This document shows, in pieces, positions 49,992 to 60,155 of a DNA stretch of 64,000 bases. Both the position numbers and the translations under genes were made by a program. The DNA comes from Sulfuricurvum sp. Its GTDB lineage: Bacteria > Campylobacterota > Campylobacteria > Campylobacterales > Sulfurimonadaceae. Each line of letters begins with the position of its first letter. The stretch's first letter is position 1. Location of the stretch: NCBI RefSeq assembly GCF_030691015.1, contig NZ_JAUYFF010000002.1:310001-374000 (forward strand), given 5' to 3'. The notes under the pieces are model-generated. The model searched no databases. It was not told the DNA's origin and was given only the letters and a program-made list of their open reading frames with translations.

Positions 49992-50023
49992 ATTTTTAAT
50001 CACTCATACTACAAGGATTGTCT

Positions 50024-52051
50024 ATGTGTAAGGTTATTTCAACTTCGATCAAAATCTCATTGATTGTATGCAGTATCATCCTAGTAGGCAATGTTGGATT
50101 GTTGTATGCCAAAGAGATGCCATCTGCGGAAGTTCATCAACTTCTGGTTGAAGGTCAATCCATTTTAGAAGGTTCTTCCTCTGATGTGAGTTTCCAATTA
50201 GCTTTGCGAAAGTTTGAAAAGGCGCGTGATCTTTCACCGGACTGGCCTGAAATCTACTATTACCTAGGGGTTACATACAATGCAAATGAAAATTTCAGCA
50301 GTGCTCTTCAGTCATTTAAGCGTTATCTTGAATTGGATCCAAATGCAGCAGATGCCGCATTCGTACGAGATCTGATTTCGCAAATTGAAACAAAACAGCA
50401 AAATACGCTACATTCTGGGAAAAATAAATCAACGATAACACCTAGCGGTTCGCCATCCATTCTGGGCAATGAAGCGCTTCACACTCAGCAATATCAGCAG
50501 GCTGTTATCTATTATATCCAAGCGATGGAGATAGACCCAAACGATTACCGATCTAGCTATAACTTGGGAATCTGTTATGTTAATCTTGGGAAAAGAACTT
50601 TGGCTATCGAAGCATTTCAGAGAGCTGTTCAGATTAACCCGACCTACTATCTCGCCTATAACGATCTAGGATTGGTCTACAGTAAACTGAGTCGCTTTCA
50701 AGAAGCCTTAGATGCTTATGATAAAGCAATTGCAGCCAAACCTGATTATGCTCCCGCCCATTATAATACTGGAGTCGTCTACACGAATCAAGGCAAACAT
50801 TCTGAAGCAATACCATTTTATAAAAAGGCGGCAGCAATCAATCCTCGATATATTGAAGCCTTGAGTAACCTCGCTAGCTCCTACAGTGCACTTAAACAGT
50901 ATGATCAATCGATGTATTTTTATCAGGAGGCTTTGAAAGTCGATTCGGAGTATGTATTTGCGAACTATGGATATGGATGTGATCTAATAGATCTAGACCG
51001 TAATGATGAAGCGATTCCCTACTTAAAAAAGGCGTTGCAAAAAAATCCTAAATATGCGCCTTCCAGCTTTATGCTAGGCTTGGCCAATGCAAAATTAAAA
51101 CGTTATGAAGAATCCGTCAAATGGTATAGTAAGGCTATTGAAATGAATCCTAATTATGGTGATGCTTATTACAACATTGCTATTGCTTATGTCGAATGGG
51201 GGCGTCCAGAGGAAGCAATCCCCTATTATCAAAAGTCTGCAATGTTGAAACCTAATGATGTATCTACCCTTAATAACATGGCTTCTGTTTATATCACTCT
51301 TGGTAAGTATAGTGAAGCAAAAGAGATTTTGATAAATGCGTTGGCAATTAATCCGCGACACGATAAAGCAAACTATAACATGGGCTATGCCTTACGGGCT
51401 TTAGGTCAAAAACAACAAGCAGTTTCTTATTATGAGAAAGCACTCCTATTTAATCCGAAACATGCAGATGCGCTATATGAGCTGGGGAGCATTTTGATGG
51501 AAGATGAAAAGCCCGAAAAGGCAATTCAGTATTTTCAGATGGCAATATCGGCTGAGCCAAAACATGCTGAAGCTTATCACAATTTGGGTATTTGTTATGA
51601 AAATCTTGGAAATATTCAGAAAGCAATAGCCTATTATGAGAAGGCAGCTTCTCTAAGTGATAATCCGGCGGAGAGCTATTATGCTCTCGGTCTTGCTTTA
51701 GATGCTCTAGGTGATGGTAAAAAAGCAATGACTGCCTATGAAAATGCACTTTCAGATTTTGCGCTATCCGTCAGAAAAGACCCTAATAATGGCGAATTAC
51801 TTAATAGGATGAGCGGTGCTTATTATTCTCTTGGCAGGTATGAAGAGGCTATTTCGCTTCTGGAGCAGGCAGTTAAGCTCAATCCTGATGATGCTGATTC
51901 ATATGTTGGTCTGGGTGCCTGTTATATTGAACTCAAAAAAAATGACCAGGCCAGAGATGCATTGCAAAAAGCCAAGAAGCTTCACCAGAAACAAAATAAT
52001 TCAGCAGGTATACAGGAAGCGGATGAATATTTAAAGAATATTATCGAATGA
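50024..52051 (+). CDS. Exported TPR-repeat protein
   Basis: A 675-residue protein: Sec signal peptide (KVISTSIKISLIVCSIILVGNVGLLYA), then about 15-17 tetratricopeptide repeats (typical units KALQKNPKYAPSSFMLGLANAKLKRYEESV, AISAEPKHAEAYHNLGICYENLGN), so it is a protein-interaction scaffold in the periplasm or on the surface. ATG 50024 is preferred over TTG 50018 because AAGGA (50013-50017) sits six bases before it. The 3' end overlaps the converging gene by 21 bases. Strong candidate for the structural core of the cluster. Confidence 0.87.
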   Translation: MCKVISTSIKISLIVCSIILVGNVGLLYAKEMPSAEVHQLLVEGQSILEGSSSDVSFQLALRKFEKARDLSPDWPEIYYYLGVTYNANENFSSALQSFKRYLELDPNAADAAFVRDLISQIETKQQNTLHSGKNKSTITPSGSPSILGNEALHTQQYQQAVIYYIQAMEIDPNDYRSSYNLGICYVNLGKRTLAIEAFQRAVQINPTYYLAYNDLGLVYSKLSRFQEALDAYDKAIAAKPDYAPAHYNTGVVYTNQGKHSEAIPFYKKAAAINPRYIEALSNLASSYSALKQYDQSMYFYQEALKVDSEYVFANYGYGCDLIDLDRNDEAIPYLKKALQKNPKYAPSSFMLGLANAKLKRYEESVKWYSKAIEMNPNYGDAYYNIAIAYVEWGRPEEAIPYYQKSAMLKPNDVSTLNNMASVYITLGKYSEAKEILINALAINPRHDKANYNMGYALRALGQKQQAVSYYEKALLFNPKHADALYELGSILMEDEKPEKAIQYFQMAISAEPKHAEAYHNLGICYENLGNIQKAIAYYEKAASLSDNPAESYYALGLALDALGDGKKAMTAYENALSDFALSVRKDPNNGELLNRMSGAYYSLGRYEEAISLLEQAVKLNPDDADSYVGLGACYIELKKNDQARDALQKAKKLHQKQNNSAGIQEADEYLKNIIE

Positions 52052-52630
52052 AGAGAAAAAACAGATAGATTTTAAGGTTTCAATCAATGTACCGCTGCAT
52101 TTAAAATCTTTTGACACTCCATTCGATATCAATTGGATTCGTTGATCATCTTTTATTGGACAGTTGTTCATAAATGAACATAAGTCTTGTTGTGGTGAAG
52201 ATTGAAATTCGCATTGAGCTTCCTTGCCTATCAACATTTGGATACTGGCGTGTTTTCGTAAAGCGGGGCATTCAGGAAGAATCGTTTTAAAGAATGAATT
52301 TTCAGGTTGCTTTTTAAAGCTTTGAAGCTTGTTGATTGAAATATCAGCAACAGTATGAACAAGAGAAGGTTTATTAAAACCAGGCATGCTTTGCAAATCA
52401 GCCTCTCCATAATCCAATGAACTAGTCTTTGTTATTGTAATGGATGTTTCTTCGATAATAGAAGTACCCTCACTTTCTATTTTTTTTATTTCAATCGATT
52501 TTGCTGAATTAAGATGATTGTTTACACATTGAGTATCATTGCTGCCACATTGAATGTTATCTTGAGATAAGGCGATATTACTGAATATAGAGGATAGAAT
52601 AATCAATCGGATCCATCTCTTATTTCTCAT
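52031..52630 (-). CDS. Small secreted protein of unknown function
   Basis: A 199-residue protein with a signal peptide (WIRLIILSSIFSNIALS) and several cysteines (IQCGSNDTQCVNN, ECPAL, QCEFQ, DLCSFMNNCP, KCSGT, SICFF), consistent with a disulfide-bonded secreted protein. No family recognised. Last gene of the minus-strand cluster; overlaps the TPR gene end. Confidence 0.65.
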   Translation of the reverse strand: MRNKRWIRLIILSSIFSNIALSQDNIQCGSNDTQCVNNHLNSAKSIEIKKIESEGTSIIEETSITITKTSSLDYGEADLQSMPGFNKPSLVHTVADISINKLQSFKKQPENSFFKTILPECPALRKHASIQMLIGKEAQCEFQSSPQQDLCSFMNNCPIKDDQRIQLISNGVSKDFKCSGTLIETLKSICFFSSFDNIL

Positions 52631-52663: not shown

Positions 52664-53518
52664 TTATCTAGCTTTTTTGTATTTAGAGTCGTCTAAAATA
52701 CCGCCCCATTCAATAACAGTGAAACCTTTACGCTCAGGCGTTGTAATAGCTGGCTCATCAATTTTTTCCAGTTCTTTAAGTGGCGTAAAGTAAAAATCGA
52801 GTCGTATAAGCGTATCAGGTTTTGGATGAATATCTAAGTCCATATTGTCAGACAAAAACTTCATATCCAGCAATTGGATTTTATAATAAGATGAAGAAGG
52901 TAGTTCATTTATCCAATACTCTTTAAACTGCTGTTTTTCTTTAGCATTTAAACCAAGTTTTGCAAGATTGATATCAAACCAAAGGTTTAGCTCTTTGTAT
53001 TCTACGATCCATCCCTCTTTAGGAAGGGTCACTTTTTTGAGATCCGCCTCGTAAAAAAGATAATCATACCCCCCTTCGATGGCGCCATTGGGCTCTGCAC
53101 TCACTTTCCACCCGCCGTTATAGGGGGGAATTGTCGTTGTCAGGGTGCCGTTAACGCGCAGAGAGACGGAAATATCGGTTTTTTTAGTCGGGTAGAGGTA
53201 GATGGCCGGTTTTTTGATCGGATATCCCGGCCCCTCGGGTTCTACGCACATTTTGACGCACTCCTCTTTGGTCTCGAAGGGGACAGTCCCTTCGCATCCC
53301 CCGTATATAAACTCCTTGCACTGGTTCGTTTTGGGGTCATACGTGTATTTCCAAAAGATCGCTTTGCAGGGCCCTTTTTCCGGAACCATTGTGCAACGCG
53401 GGTCGGCAGAGCCGTTTTCCCACGGCATCGGCGGGATGAGTATCTCTTCTGCGGCATTTAAAAAAGCGGAGAGGGAGAGAATGGCGATTAGGGTTTGTAA
53501 CGGGTTTAATGAGGGCAT
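52664..53518 (-). CDS. Secreted Kunitz/BPTI-domain protein with IYLYP-type C-terminal domain
   Basis: A 284-residue secreted protein: signal peptide (LQTLIAILSLSAFLNA), then a Kunitz domain at about residues 42-91 with all six cysteines (C42, C51, C67, C75, C87, C91). Spacing between them is 8, 15, 7, 11 and 3, against 8, 15, 7, 12 and 3 in bovine pancreatic trypsin inhibitor. The reactive loop reads GPCKAI, with lysine at P1, suggesting trypsin-like targets. The rest (about 95-284) is the domain with PAIYLYPTKKTDI and ending KGFTVIEWGG, which I recall from other bacterial surface proteins. Kunitz domains are mainly animal; finding one here is unusual. Coding composition changes inside the gene. 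Confidence 0.85.
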   Translation of the reverse strand: MPSLNPLQTLIAILSLSAFLNAAEEILIPPMPWENGSADPRCTMVPEKGPCKAIFWKYTYDPKTNQCKEFIYGGCEGTVPFETKEECVKMCVEPEGPGYPIKKPAIYLYPTKKTDISVSLRVNGTLTTTIPPYNGGWKVSAEPNGAIEGGYDYLFYEADLKKVTLPKEGWIVEYKELNLWFDINLAKLGLNAKEKQQFKEYWINELPSSSYYKIQLLDMKFLSDNMDLDIHPKPDTLIRLDFYFTPLKELEKIDEPAITTPERKGFTVIEWGGILDDSKYKKAR

Positions 53519-53528
53519 AGCGTTTCCT

Positions 53529-53963
53529 TTATCGGGGGGTAGTTGGAGATATGGGTTGAGGATTTGAGAAATACGGGTCGTATTGCTGGAATGTCAATGC
53601 CGTGGCTACGGCTATGGCAACAATCCATACCAACACTACCGTCGGATGAATTTGAAGGGTAAAAACTGACATAATCCAAGATTTATTTGCCCTTTTTTCA
53701 GAGAGGGGGTGTACCATCTTCATGGTGATAAGCGGACCGATTAAAGGGACGAAAGCTACAATACAGGCGATGTAAAAACGACTTTTATCCCCCTCTCTGT
53801 CCCACGTCAAAAAGACCCAGGAGAGAAGTAAGAATGTCGCGATGAGATAGAGGATAGCCCCTACGCCATCCAGCCTTGGAATGGCTGCGATCACTAAGGC
53901 GCCGATGTGGCTGAGGAGCCCAAGCCCCAACAGGTTATCTTTGATAACTGTTTTTGTGATCAT
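53529..53963 (-). CDS. Small membrane protein, four helices
   Basis: A 144-residue hydrophobic protein with about four membrane helices (12-30, 35-55, 65-85, 105-125) and a proline-rich tail. No family recognised. It lies six bases after the DUF4919-like gene and ten bases before the Kunitz gene, so it is co-transcribed and may help export or anchor its neighbours. Confidence 0.7.
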   Translation of the reverse strand: MITKTVIKDNLLGLGLLSHIGALVIAAIPRLDGVGAILYLIATFLLLSWVFLTWDREGDKSRFYIACIVAFVPLIGPLITMKMVHPLSEKRANKSWIMSVFTLQIHPTVVLVWIVAIAVATALTFQQYDPYFSNPQPISPTTPR

Positions 53964-53969
53964 ATGCTG

Positions 53970-54605
53970 TCACTTTTTCTTAAGGCTTTCGTTGAGCCAG
54001 TTGTAGGGGAGAGTCACATCGAAGAATAGGGCAAATGTCTCATTATTTCGGGAATCGGATACTTCAAAAACATCGTAGGCTTTGTCGTTGATCTGTTGCA
54101 GTTTTTGCTGTTTAGGTTGGAGATTAAGAACCTTCAATATTATGTATTCTTCTCGCGTCGTGATGACTTGCAAGGCTGATTGGGGGGTCGTTCCATCTCC
54201 CGAATTCATAATTGAATCGATTAGATTGGCAAGAGTCGCGTGATGGGAATCGTAGCATGCTTTGTCTCCCATCTCTCTACAGGCCATCCGTGCTCCGAAA
54301 TGGGCATCCAGATCGGTAAAATTCTTTTCGTTGATTTTTCGGGCATATTCGAGTGCTTTCGGATACGCTTTGTCGTTGAGAGCCTGGAGCATGAGGGGCA
54401 TATTCTCATCTTCACTGTATGGATTGTATTGGGGCGTCTGGGAATAGGCTATTCGTAGTGCTTTGAAATCGACGTTTGTATCACCGTTTTTGACTTTGGT
54501 TACTAATGTTTGATAGTCGTTTATTAAGGGTGCTTCCGCGAATAAAGCTGTTCCTGACATAATCATCATAAAACTGACAAAGAGTAAGAAATTTCGGTAA
54601 AACAT
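53970..54605 (-). CDS. Exported DUF4919-like protein
   Basis: A 211-residue exported protein with a signal peptide (FLLFVSFMMIMSGTALFA). The segments DFKALRIAYSQTPQYNPY and LPYNWLNESL match the DUF4919 pattern as I remember it; function unknown. ATG 54605 is chosen because AAAGGAAA precedes it; the open frame upstream (to 54638) overlaps the MuiA-like gene without an RBS. Confidence 0.72.
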   Translation of the reverse strand: MFYRNFLLFVSFMMIMSGTALFAEAPLINDYQTLVTKVKNGDTNVDFKALRIAYSQTPQYNPYSEDENMPLMLQALNDKAYPKALEYARKINEKNFTDLDAHFGARMACREMGDKACYDSHHATLANLIDSIMNSGDGTTPQSALQVITTREEYIILKVLNLQPKQQKLQQINDKAYDVFEVSDSRNNETFALFFDVTLPYNWLNESLKKK

Positions 54606-54634
54606 TTTTTTTCCTTTGGATGTAATATCGCTGA

Positions 54635-56245
54635 TCATTCGAGTCCTTCTATCTCAATTTTTTTAGGATAGGAAACCGTAAACTGCATTGGTAAAACTTT
54701 CTTTTCATGGGCACTTAATTCTACATTCCAAATGATAATCCCATCTTCGGAAATTTTTGCAGACTCTTTTTGAGGTGTGTCAAGAACAACTTTGATCTGT
54801 TCGTTTCGAGAAACCGGAAAATGATCTTCTATATCAATCCGAATCGGTTTGTTTTTACCATTGCTAATTTCGTGAGAATAGCTATATTTTACATGGGTAT
54901 CATTTGAAATAAATTGATCCTCTTTACTGTATTTCTTTTGTTGTTTGTATTCAATTTTAATACTTTCATCTGCACCAAGGGAGAGTTGAACCTCTTCTTT
55001 AGGAAAGATTGTTTTCAAAGTATTGTGCATGCCTACGACTTGTCCATCCAATAGTAAAGTCATTTCACCCCTCAAGAGGGGGAAAGAGAATGGGCTCTCT
55101 AAATCTGCGGTCAAATAGGCAAACGATGAAACTCTAGGAACAGCTCGGTAATGAAAGTTTGCCTCTTTTTCAGCAGATGAAATAAAAATTTTGTGTGGCT
55201 GATTATCAGATGGAATCGTATTCCTACCGGGTAGCACAAAACTAAAAGAGGTCGATTCTTGCTGAATTTCAGGTGCTGCATACGTATCAGGAAGCATGGA
55301 TGCAACTGTTCTTGGCTCAGCCATCATCTCAACTTGATCATAGGCTGATTTAGAATAATTTCTTGAGCTTGGACGGTAAATATCAATATACCATCCTTCC
55401 AATGTATCTGGTGCCTTAGCGCTGAAAGGTTTAGCTGTCGAAATTTCAATCGATGCATCTGCCCAATCTTCTCCGCTTGATTGGGAAATGGAGGTGAAGT
55501 TTGACCATTCTATTTTTCCGGAAATGGAATCGGCATGAATGATATAGAGTGGATTCCAATGTGCGTTATTTACCATATAAGAAATTTCAACTTTTTGATC
55601 TTTTAAATCGGTTGAAGAATAGAGTTCTATCTGGACACTCTTACTTTCATCCGACGTTTTAAGTGTATTGAGCTCTTTTTCTATCGAAACTTTTTCTTTT
55701 TGGAGTTCTTTAGTGTGAACTTCTATTTTTGCAAGACGATTATAATTGTCTGTAAGGGTTTTTTCGAGAAATTTGGTATGGGCTTCTATTTCAGCAGGAA
55801 GGACTTTTTGATTGTGTGAAAATGGTGTTATCCTTTTTAAAAATTCATTTGAATTTGTGACAATGGCCATTTCATCTATATCATTTTGAATAAGAGCGGT
55901 TATTTGATCTAGCTTGGATTGGAGCTTTTCAATGTTATCGTGTTGCAACTTTTGAAGGTAAGTCTTTTTTACTTTTACATCTGATATTTTGATCGTGGAA
56001 ACTCCATCTAGCTTCACTTGAAGAGAATTATCAATTAAATTAGGGGTTAAATCGGGTATATAAATCGAGTTTTCTCCTTTTTTCAGAGAAACTTTTCCCT
56101 CTTTCGTAACCATGGCATTATTGGTAAAAACGGTAACATGAGTGATTTTAGGATTGACTAACTGCATCTTACTTGACGCCGATAGCTCCGAAATATACAA
56201 GAAGAAGGCAATTAATATAACTGAATGGACAGAACTTCTAAACAT
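54635..56245 (-). CDS. Exported MuiA/DUF4139-like protein
   Basis: A 536-residue protein: signal peptide (VHSVILIAFFLYISELSAS), an N-terminal DUF4140-like domain (ITHVTVFTNNAMVTKEGKVSLKKGEN), two coiled-coil helices (about 80-200), and a C-terminal beta domain of DUF4139/MuiA type (VEISYMVNNAHWNPLYIIHADS, AKPFSAKAP, FPVSRNEQIKV). In other bacteria the family is named mucoidy inhibitor A from early work. First gene of the cluster and probably an envelope protein. Confidence 0.8.
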   Translation of the reverse strand: MFRSSVHSVILIAFFLYISELSASSKMQLVNPKITHVTVFTNNAMVTKEGKVSLKKGENSIYIPDLTPNLIDNSLQVKLDGVSTIKISDVKVKKTYLQKLQHDNIEKLQSKLDQITALIQNDIDEMAIVTNSNEFLKRITPFSHNQKVLPAEIEAHTKFLEKTLTDNYNRLAKIEVHTKELQKEKVSIEKELNTLKTSDESKSVQIELYSSTDLKDQKVEISYMVNNAHWNPLYIIHADSISGKIEWSNFTSISQSSGEDWADASIEISTAKPFSAKAPDTLEGWYIDIYRPSSRNYSKSAYDQVEMMAEPRTVASMLPDTYAAPEIQQESTSFSFVLPGRNTIPSDNQPHKIFISSAEKEANFHYRAVPRVSSFAYLTADLESPFSFPLLRGEMTLLLDGQVVGMHNTLKTIFPKEEVQLSLGADESIKIEYKQQKKYSKEDQFISNDTHVKYSYSHEISNGKNKPIRIDIEDHFPVSRNEQIKVVLDTPQKESAKISEDGIIIWNVELSAHEKKVLPMQFTVSYPKKIEIEGLE

Positions 56246-58666: not shown

Positions 58667-58709
58667 AATGTTACTTTACGATAAATAATGATAGAAAGTG
58701 GGTATTACC

Positions 58710-60155
58710 ATGGAAGTCTTTAAGCAATATTCTAATCAAATCATGTGGCTTGGCATTTTAATGTTTGGTATTGTCGTACTTGGTTGCGGCGGAGGCGGAG
58801 GGGGTAGTGCCAGTGCGATTAATAGCACGGTCGCGGTTGCCCCTACAGTCATTTCCACCAATCCAGGCAATACTGTCACGGCGGTAGCGCGTAATCAGAA
58901 TATAACGGCTACCTTCAGTACAGCAATGAATGCTGCAACGCTGACGGCAAGTACTTTCACGGTAACGGGACCCGGTTCTACGCCCGTTGCCGGAAGTGTT
59001 ACCTACTCAGGAACAACCGCCTCTTTCAACCCGACCGCTGACCTCGCCGACAGTGTACTCTATACTGCTACAATCACCACCGGTGCCAAAAACGTAGCCG
59101 GTACCGCTGTGGCTGCTAATTATGTCTGGACCTTTACTACCGGTTCAATCAATGATAGCACTGCCCCTGATGTAAATTCTACCAATCCGGATAGTAATGC
59201 TACCGGTGTGCCGATCAATCAAAGTATCACCGCTGTCTTTAGCGAAGCTGTTGATTCCGCTACGGTAAATACAACAAGTTTTTCTCTTATCGAGGGGATA
59301 ACACCGATTGCAGGTGTTGTGACCTACTCGGGAACAACGGCGATTTTTAATCCGACGAACAATCTCAATACGGATACCAATTATACGGCAACCATTACTA
59401 CGGCTGTCCAAGACTTGGCAGGTAATGCCATGCTAGTCAATAAAGTCTGGACATTTACAACAGGGACAACGATAGCAAACGGCCCCGATCCGGTTAGTCT
59501 CGGTACGGCGGGTAATTTCGTCCTTCTAAGCAAATCAGGTATCTCAACCACCGGCGTCACGAGCATCACCGGAGATATCGGAGTGAGTCCTATCGATGCG
59601 ACTGCATTTACGGGATTTTCCAATTATGCATTATCCGGAACCTATGCAACGGCAGATCAAGTAACCGGAAAGTTGTATGCGGCTAATTTTGCTGCCCCTA
59701 CACCTGCGTATCTAACCACCGCTATTAGCGATATGGAAATTGCGTTCACCGATGCCGCAGGGCGAACGAATCCTACGGCTACGGAACTCGGTGCCGGAAA
59801 CATTAGCGGGATGATTCTCGCTCCCGGTCTCTATAAATGGGGAACGGGTGTTCTCATCACGGGTGCGGGCGTTACACTCTCAGGGGGTGCTAATGATGTC
59901 TGGATTTTCCAGATTGCACAAGATTTGACGGTGAGCAGCGGTGCGATCATTACCCTTGCTGATGGGGCAATGGCCAAAAATGTTTTCTGGCAAGTCTCCG
60001 GTCAAACGGCACTGGGAACAACGGTTCAATTCAAAGGCAATATATTGAGTCAAACCTTGATCTCTCTCAATACCGGTGCGACATTGGAAGGGCGTACATT
60101 AGCTCAGACAGCGGTTACTTTGAACGCCAATACTATTATTCTTCCTACTCCATAA
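58710..60155 (+). CDS. Ice-binding lipoprotein with two Big_5 domains
   Basis: A 481-residue lipoprotein: signal ending in the lipobox VVLGC, then a glycine linker. Two bacterial Ig-like Big_5 domains follow (about 50-150 and 155-255, each ending in WTFTTG with AVFSEAVDSATVNTTSF or TFSTAMNAATLTASTF). The C-terminal domain (about 262-481) is an ice-binding domain of the DUF3494 type (LGTAGNFVLLSKSGISTTGVTSITGDIGVSP, AADQVTGKLYAANF variants, GLYKWGTG, NVFWQVSGQTALGTTVQFKGNILSQTLISLNTGATLEGR). In other organisms this domain binds ice or attaches cells to it. The start is ATG 58710; GTG 58698 is possible. Confidence 0.9.
   Translation: MEVFKQYSNQIMWLGILMFGIVVLGCGGGGGGSASAINSTVAVAPTVISTNPGNTVTAVARNQNITATFSTAMNAATLTASTFTVTGPGSTPVAGSVTYSGTTASFNPTADLADSVLYTATITTGAKNVAGTAVAANYVWTFTTGSINDSTAPDVNSTNPDSNATGVPINQSITAVFSEAVDSATVNTTSFSLIEGITPIAGVVTYSGTTAIFNPTNNLNTDTNYTATITTAVQDLAGNAMLVNKVWTFTTGTTIANGPDPVSLGTAGNFVLLSKSGISTTGVTSITGDIGVSPIDATAFTGFSNYALSGTYATADQVTGKLYAANFAAPTPAYLTTAISDMEIAFTDAAGRTNPTATELGAGNISGMILAPGLYKWGTGVLITGAGVTLSGGANDVWIFQIAQDLTVSSGAIITLADGAMAKNVFWQVSGQTALGTTVQFKGNILSQTLISLNTGATLEGRTLAQTAVTLNANTIILPTP

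Follow-up and report, generated by a model that had tools for sequence, protein, structure and literature searches.

Kunitz domains are textbook protease inhibitors of animals, and bacterial members of the family, PF00014, are already listed in public databases. The animal inhibitors closest to the protein described here are BPTI, TFPI Kunitz domain 1, SmCI domain 3, boophilin and ShPI-1. They share with the bacterial domains six cysteines, a P1 Lys or Arg within a G-x-C-K-A loop, an F-x-Y/W-GGC secondary loop and a C-terminal C-x3-C, and TFPI domain 1 has both GPCKAI and FIYGGCEG in common with the domain of the window, the whole 64-kb stretch of DNA analysed here. In the open-access literature searched, no study of a bacterial Kunitz domain was found. 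Judged by its sequence, the window protein carries a genuine animal-type (aprotinin-like) Kunitz domain joined to an undescribed domain in a free-living bacterium. With a probability of roughly 0.6, it would be a secreted canonical Kunitz/BPTI inhibitor built on this second module, termed IYLYP, with an animal-derived domain directed most likely against foreign trypsin-like proteases.

The Kunitz domain and its gene

The gene (52664..53518, minus strand) starts with ATG, is preceded by the RBS-like AAAGGAAA and encodes a secreted-type protein of 284 aa with an orthologue in a sister species. The protein consists of a signal-peptide-like N-terminus of the Sec type, MPSLNPLQTLIAILSLSAFLNA-AEE (53450..53518, minus strand; read from the sequence by eye, the cleavage site being approximate), a Kunitz/BPTI domain spanning Cys1 to Cys6 (53246..53395, minus strand) and a C-terminal IYLYP domain, KKPAIYLYP...EWGGIL (52691..53215, minus strand). 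Within the Kunitz domain, the reactive site C-K-A (P2-P1-P1') lies at 53360..53368 on the minus strand, as placed by the alignment of 13 bacterial domains.

The initial annotation had proposed a Kunitz/BPTI domain with six cysteines and a lysine at P1, and each of these points stands. The six-Cys segment, CTMVPEKGPCKAIFWKYTYDPKTNQCKEFIYGGCEGTVPFETKEECVKMC, falls exactly at 53246..53395 with a spacing of 8-15-7-11-3, and P1 is K. Residues 41-91 match PF00014 with E 6.8e-14 and 52.2 bits (cut-off 21), the domain alone reaches E 2.2e-15, and this is the single PF00014 match of the whole host genome, the 14 control genomes containing none. Searched with phmmer against PDB sequences, the domain retrieves 108 distinct chains at E <= 1e-3, the best at 4.9e-30, and all are Kunitz proteins among the 60 of 108 listed. 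The six-Cys pattern appears once in the six frames of the window, and 200,000 shuffled versions of the protein never produce it, so that it is not attributable to chance.

The domain had also been described as one residue short, and every aligned animal domain indeed carries one residue more than its bacterial query between Cys4 and Cys5. This segment comprises 11 residues in 12 of the 13 bacterial domains, 10 in the remaining one and typically 12 in animals. Because of the shortening, the PROSITE Kunitz pattern, F-x3-G-C-x6-[FY]-x5-C, fails by one position. With the shorter segment, the stretch around the core residue Asn43 of BPTI is lost or replaced, which might weaken the Kunitz fold. In AF2 predictions, one alignment for which omits its phage and plasmid rows, the Kunitz part alone has a low mean pLDDT of 63 from a shallow alignment, and its best PDB matches are Kunitz structures with TM of about 0.26-0.35. 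With the full model, Foldseek places Kunitz structures at the top (prob 0.99, E 3.2e-3), with low TM and a domain pLDDT of about 50-71.

The gene is embedded in a minus-strand run whose order is DUF4139, DUF4919, membrane protein, Kunitz protein and 199-aa exported protein. The DUF4140/DUF4139 gene (54635..56245, Pfam), first of a probable operon, overlaps by 4 nt that of an exported DUF4919 protein, a conserved neighbour (53970..54638; PF16266, E 2.1e-16). Gaps of 6 nt, 10 nt and 33 nt then precede a membrane protein of 144 aa with multiple hydrophobic segments (53529..53963), the Kunitz gene directly downstream of it, and the Cys-containing 199-aa protein (52031..52630), respectively. In the sister species (G543; L014/L032), counterparts of the first four genes stand in identical order, and the two Kunitz proteins are 65% identical.

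On the plus strand, an exported 677-aa protein made of TPR repeats almost throughout (50018..52051) converges on the Kunitz operon and overlaps the end of the 199-aa gene. Elsewhere in the window, the C-terminal part of the product of 58698..60155 (plus strand) resembles the ice-binding family NF045625 (E 3.3e-64, under the cut-off of that model), which may point to a cold habitat. The flagellar FlgL protein of the window matches campylobacterial models and thereby suggests Campylobacterota. Within the Kunitz gene itself, GC amounts to about 0.50-0.54 in the 5' half, with about 0.50 in the Kunitz part, and to 0.34 in the 3' half. A mosaic gene, suggested by this jump, was set aside, and no conclusion on mosaic origin is drawn because the sister-species gene has a uniform GC of about 0.42 and the protein identity to the sister shows no matching step.

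Conservation of the reactive site and the proposed target

The Kunitz profile search covered genomes of the host's order, where PF00014 is matched in 7 of 399 sampled genomes. Two of the 41 genomes of the host's genus have a match and 39 have none, and the corresponding figures are 10 of 104 in family f9 and 1 of 175 in family f6, after dropping one spurious f6 match (G663, L020, E 5e-4), which runs antisense inside other genes and contains a stop codon. The plasmid and phage collections yield no Kunitz relative, and the viral contigs searched with the full protein yield no relatives. The fusion of Kunitz and IYLYP domains occurs in the host's genus and in f6. The f6 copy (L004/L031, G163) has a GC of 60% and GC3 of 0.79, and is flanked by unrelated genes, outside the gene run of the window. 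In the ten f9 genomes, the domain stands alone in a lipoprotein that has a lipobox (e.g. FTAC-S) and measures about 75-85 residues. The same small membrane-protein gene adjoins the lipoprotein gene in the five f9 loci examined in full, so the locus is a resident one in that family.

All 13 bacterial domains match PF00014 and have the spacing 8-15-7-11-3, with 10 in place of 11 in one of them. The six cysteines predicted to form the disulfides are kept in 13 of 13, so that these homologues do not show the loss of the disulfide pattern that would have spoken against the initial annotation. In their alignment, which spans three families, P1 is K or R and P1' is A or G without exception, while the residues around these two positions vary. 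Conservation extends to the Gly at position -2 relative to Cys2, which corresponds to BPTI Gly12, and to the GGC secondary loop. In support of secretion, all 13 proteins have a Sec-like start or a lipobox. Between the two closest species, the Kunitz part has a dN of 0.15 and a dS of about 2.2, the latter near saturation, and the bacterial Kunitz domains evolve under purifying selection.

In the proposed mechanism, the protein would be secreted, either periplasmic or extracellular, with the inhibitor domain borne by the IYLYP module, which is conserved and extracytoplasmic. Through its exposed loop G-P-C-K-A-I, the inhibitor would offer Lys as P1 to the S1 pocket of S1 serine proteases with trypsin-like (Lys/Arg) specificity, and so mimic a substrate, bound tightly and cleaved slowly. 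Most likely, the protease blocked would be a foreign one reaching the cell envelope, derived from a predatory bacterium, a protist, a competitor or an animal-associated habitat. Both the inhibition and the foreign target are inferred here. Since the related domains from other bacteria of the order all keep the trypsin-blocking residue, they probably shield cells from foreign proteases.

Some animal Kunitz domains are non-inhibitory and act as toxins or binding modules. It is conceivable, although rather unlikely, that the bacterial domain is such a module for adhesion or receptor binding, with the scaffold alone kept. The fold matches include cone-snail conkunitzins and domains of collagen VI, and fusion to an uncharacterised IYLYP module permits a binding role, but the retention of P1 K/R and P1' A/G in 13 domains of three families, amid variable surroundings, speaks for an inhibitory loop. 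A machine-learning analysis of PF00014 found Arg or Lys in this position to be the mark of trypsin-type inhibitory domains, the non-inhibitory ones scoring low on this R/K feature (PMC6436896), which weighs further against a binding module.

An envelope protease of the cell itself, also put forward in the initial annotation, is a less probable target still and is disfavoured by the gene content of the host. Such regulation would suit an exported protein whose partners in the operon, all without assigned function, are likewise exported or lie in the membrane. However, the host genome contains only two S1-type matches, and no exported S1 protease with trypsin-type specificity was found in it. 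L025 is HtrA-like with GNSGGP, has no signal peptide and carries Ala in place of trypsin Asp189, whereas L026 is a large protein with an S1-like stretch and without a signal-peptide-like start. The M90 peptidase encoded nearby belongs to the metallopeptidases, and 39 of the 41 genomes of the genus have no Kunitz match. A foreign target is thus the more likely one, because the S1 proteins of the host lack export signals and L025 also lacks Asp189.

For the preferred reading, inhibition of a foreign protease, Bdellovibrio bacteriovorus BspK provides a concrete candidate: this protease, which bears a signal peptide and cuts after Lys, is blocked by aprotinin (BPTI) (PMC5288813). In a broader and speculative form, held to be improbable as a whole, the bacterial Kunitz lineage, resident and with a shortened loop of its own, would constitute an anti-predator shield that acts at the envelope of the prey against Lys-specific proteases such as BspK, with IYLYP as an effector-swapping display or targeting module across bacteria, archaea and giant viruses.

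Origin of the domain

In a 22-sequence tree, the bacterial and animal domains are split with support of 97/97 (51 columns, nine animal domains, unrooted). The tree groups the bacterial domains and, being unrooted, gives no direction. The arrival of the domain by transfer, as initially suggested, agrees with its patchy distribution, which is compatible with an ancient transfer and later losses or secondary transfers. In animals Kunitz domains abound, and from this distribution we infer an animal source and hence the direction of transfer. The domain would ultimately come from animals and form one bacterial lineage, in which the Cys4-Cys5 segment is 1-2 residues shorter.

That the bacterial lineage is instead convergent, or the source of the animal domains, is very unlikely. 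The single bacterial group and the unrooted direction would accommodate it, but the matches to animal domains are so strong that convergence is excluded, and the abundance of the domain in animals, set against its rarity in the host's order, argues against a bacterial source. Contamination of the assembly or bin by animal DNA, which an animal-like domain present in just two of 41 species of the genus might suggest, is refuted: the gene lies on a 384-kb contig of a 2.33-Mb, 99.99% complete genome, in a bacterial gene run with an RBS, as an in-frame fusion with a prokaryotic domain, and both the gene and the order of its neighbours recur in a second species.

The IYLYP domain and comparison with known systems

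The C-terminal IYLYP domain, about 180 aa long, has no model in Pfam, NCBIfam or PHROG, and a Pfam-A scan of the whole protein at E <= 1 returns only the Kunitz domain and a weak UEV match. It represents a sizeable conserved family, with 35 invariant columns across seven diverse proteins and a confident AF2 model (block pLDDT mostly 83-98). The PDB search with its model gives no convincing structural match, and the viral contigs searched with the IYLYP alignment yield no relatives. By predicted structure, the Terrestrivirus (giant virus) protein A0A3G4ZNZ8 matches it with E 7.8e-14.

Beyond the window protein, the domain recurs in L002, L011, L012, L013, L027 and L028, with varied partners: in f6 (L011) it follows a different N-terminal part, on a Ruminococcus albus plasmid it is C-terminal to BspA-like LRR and SH3 domains, and it is found in Woesearchaeota and related genomes (L002, L027, L028) and on a phage-like gut contig. 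These partner domains suggest a mobile extracytoplasmic module that would combine with varied effector domains. The idea that IYLYP anchors the protein is unsupported, as the module is widespread and joined to other partners, and one archaeal protein has an N-terminal hydrophobic segment that holds the IYLYP domain itself. The 199-aa protein encoded downstream of the Kunitz gene is similar to L002 (BLASTP pairwise E 1e-4, 23% identity over 179 columns) and collinear with its residues 25-167, which lie towards the N-terminus of this archaeal protein, whereas its C-terminus is an IYLYP domain. As L002 fuses a domain resembling the 199-aa protein to IYLYP, a possible fusion link between neighbouring genes, this is a hint that the 199-aa protein and the IYLYP domain may act together.

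Compared with known proteins, the IYLYP domain of the window shares KPAIYLYP...P.PD..R...GF..EWGG with the BspA-like protein of Ruminococcus albus (WP_013483720.1, 33% identical) and with the Woesearchaeota proteins L002 (60% identical), L027 and L028. None of these carries a Kunitz domain, their partners being LRR/SH3, a Cys-containing domain or a hydrophobic anchor only.

Ecotin has a dimeric fold unrelated to Kunitz and broad specificity, and the Pfam-A scan of the Kunitz protein at E <= 1 gives no ecotin match. Bacteria are known to use ecotin against foreign proteases (PMC5893882), and work on Campylobacter rectus and C. showae has addressed its homologues (PMC7773321). Ecotin sets a precedent for a bacterial inhibitor acting on foreign proteases (PMC5893882, PMC7773321), and the same role is proposed here. 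With 13 bacterial genomes having a common signature and an intact reactive site, bacterial use of a BPTI-type inhibitor is directly testable. In conclusion, the role proposed for the bacterial Kunitz proteins resembles that of ecotin, an exported bacterial S1-protease inhibitor credited with protection from foreign proteases, whereas in comparison with the animal Kunitz inhibitors they are distinguished by their bacterial host, by a Cys4-Cys5 segment shortened by 1-2 residues, by their presentation as a lipoprotein or an IYLYP fusion, and by an inhibitory activity that is predicted.
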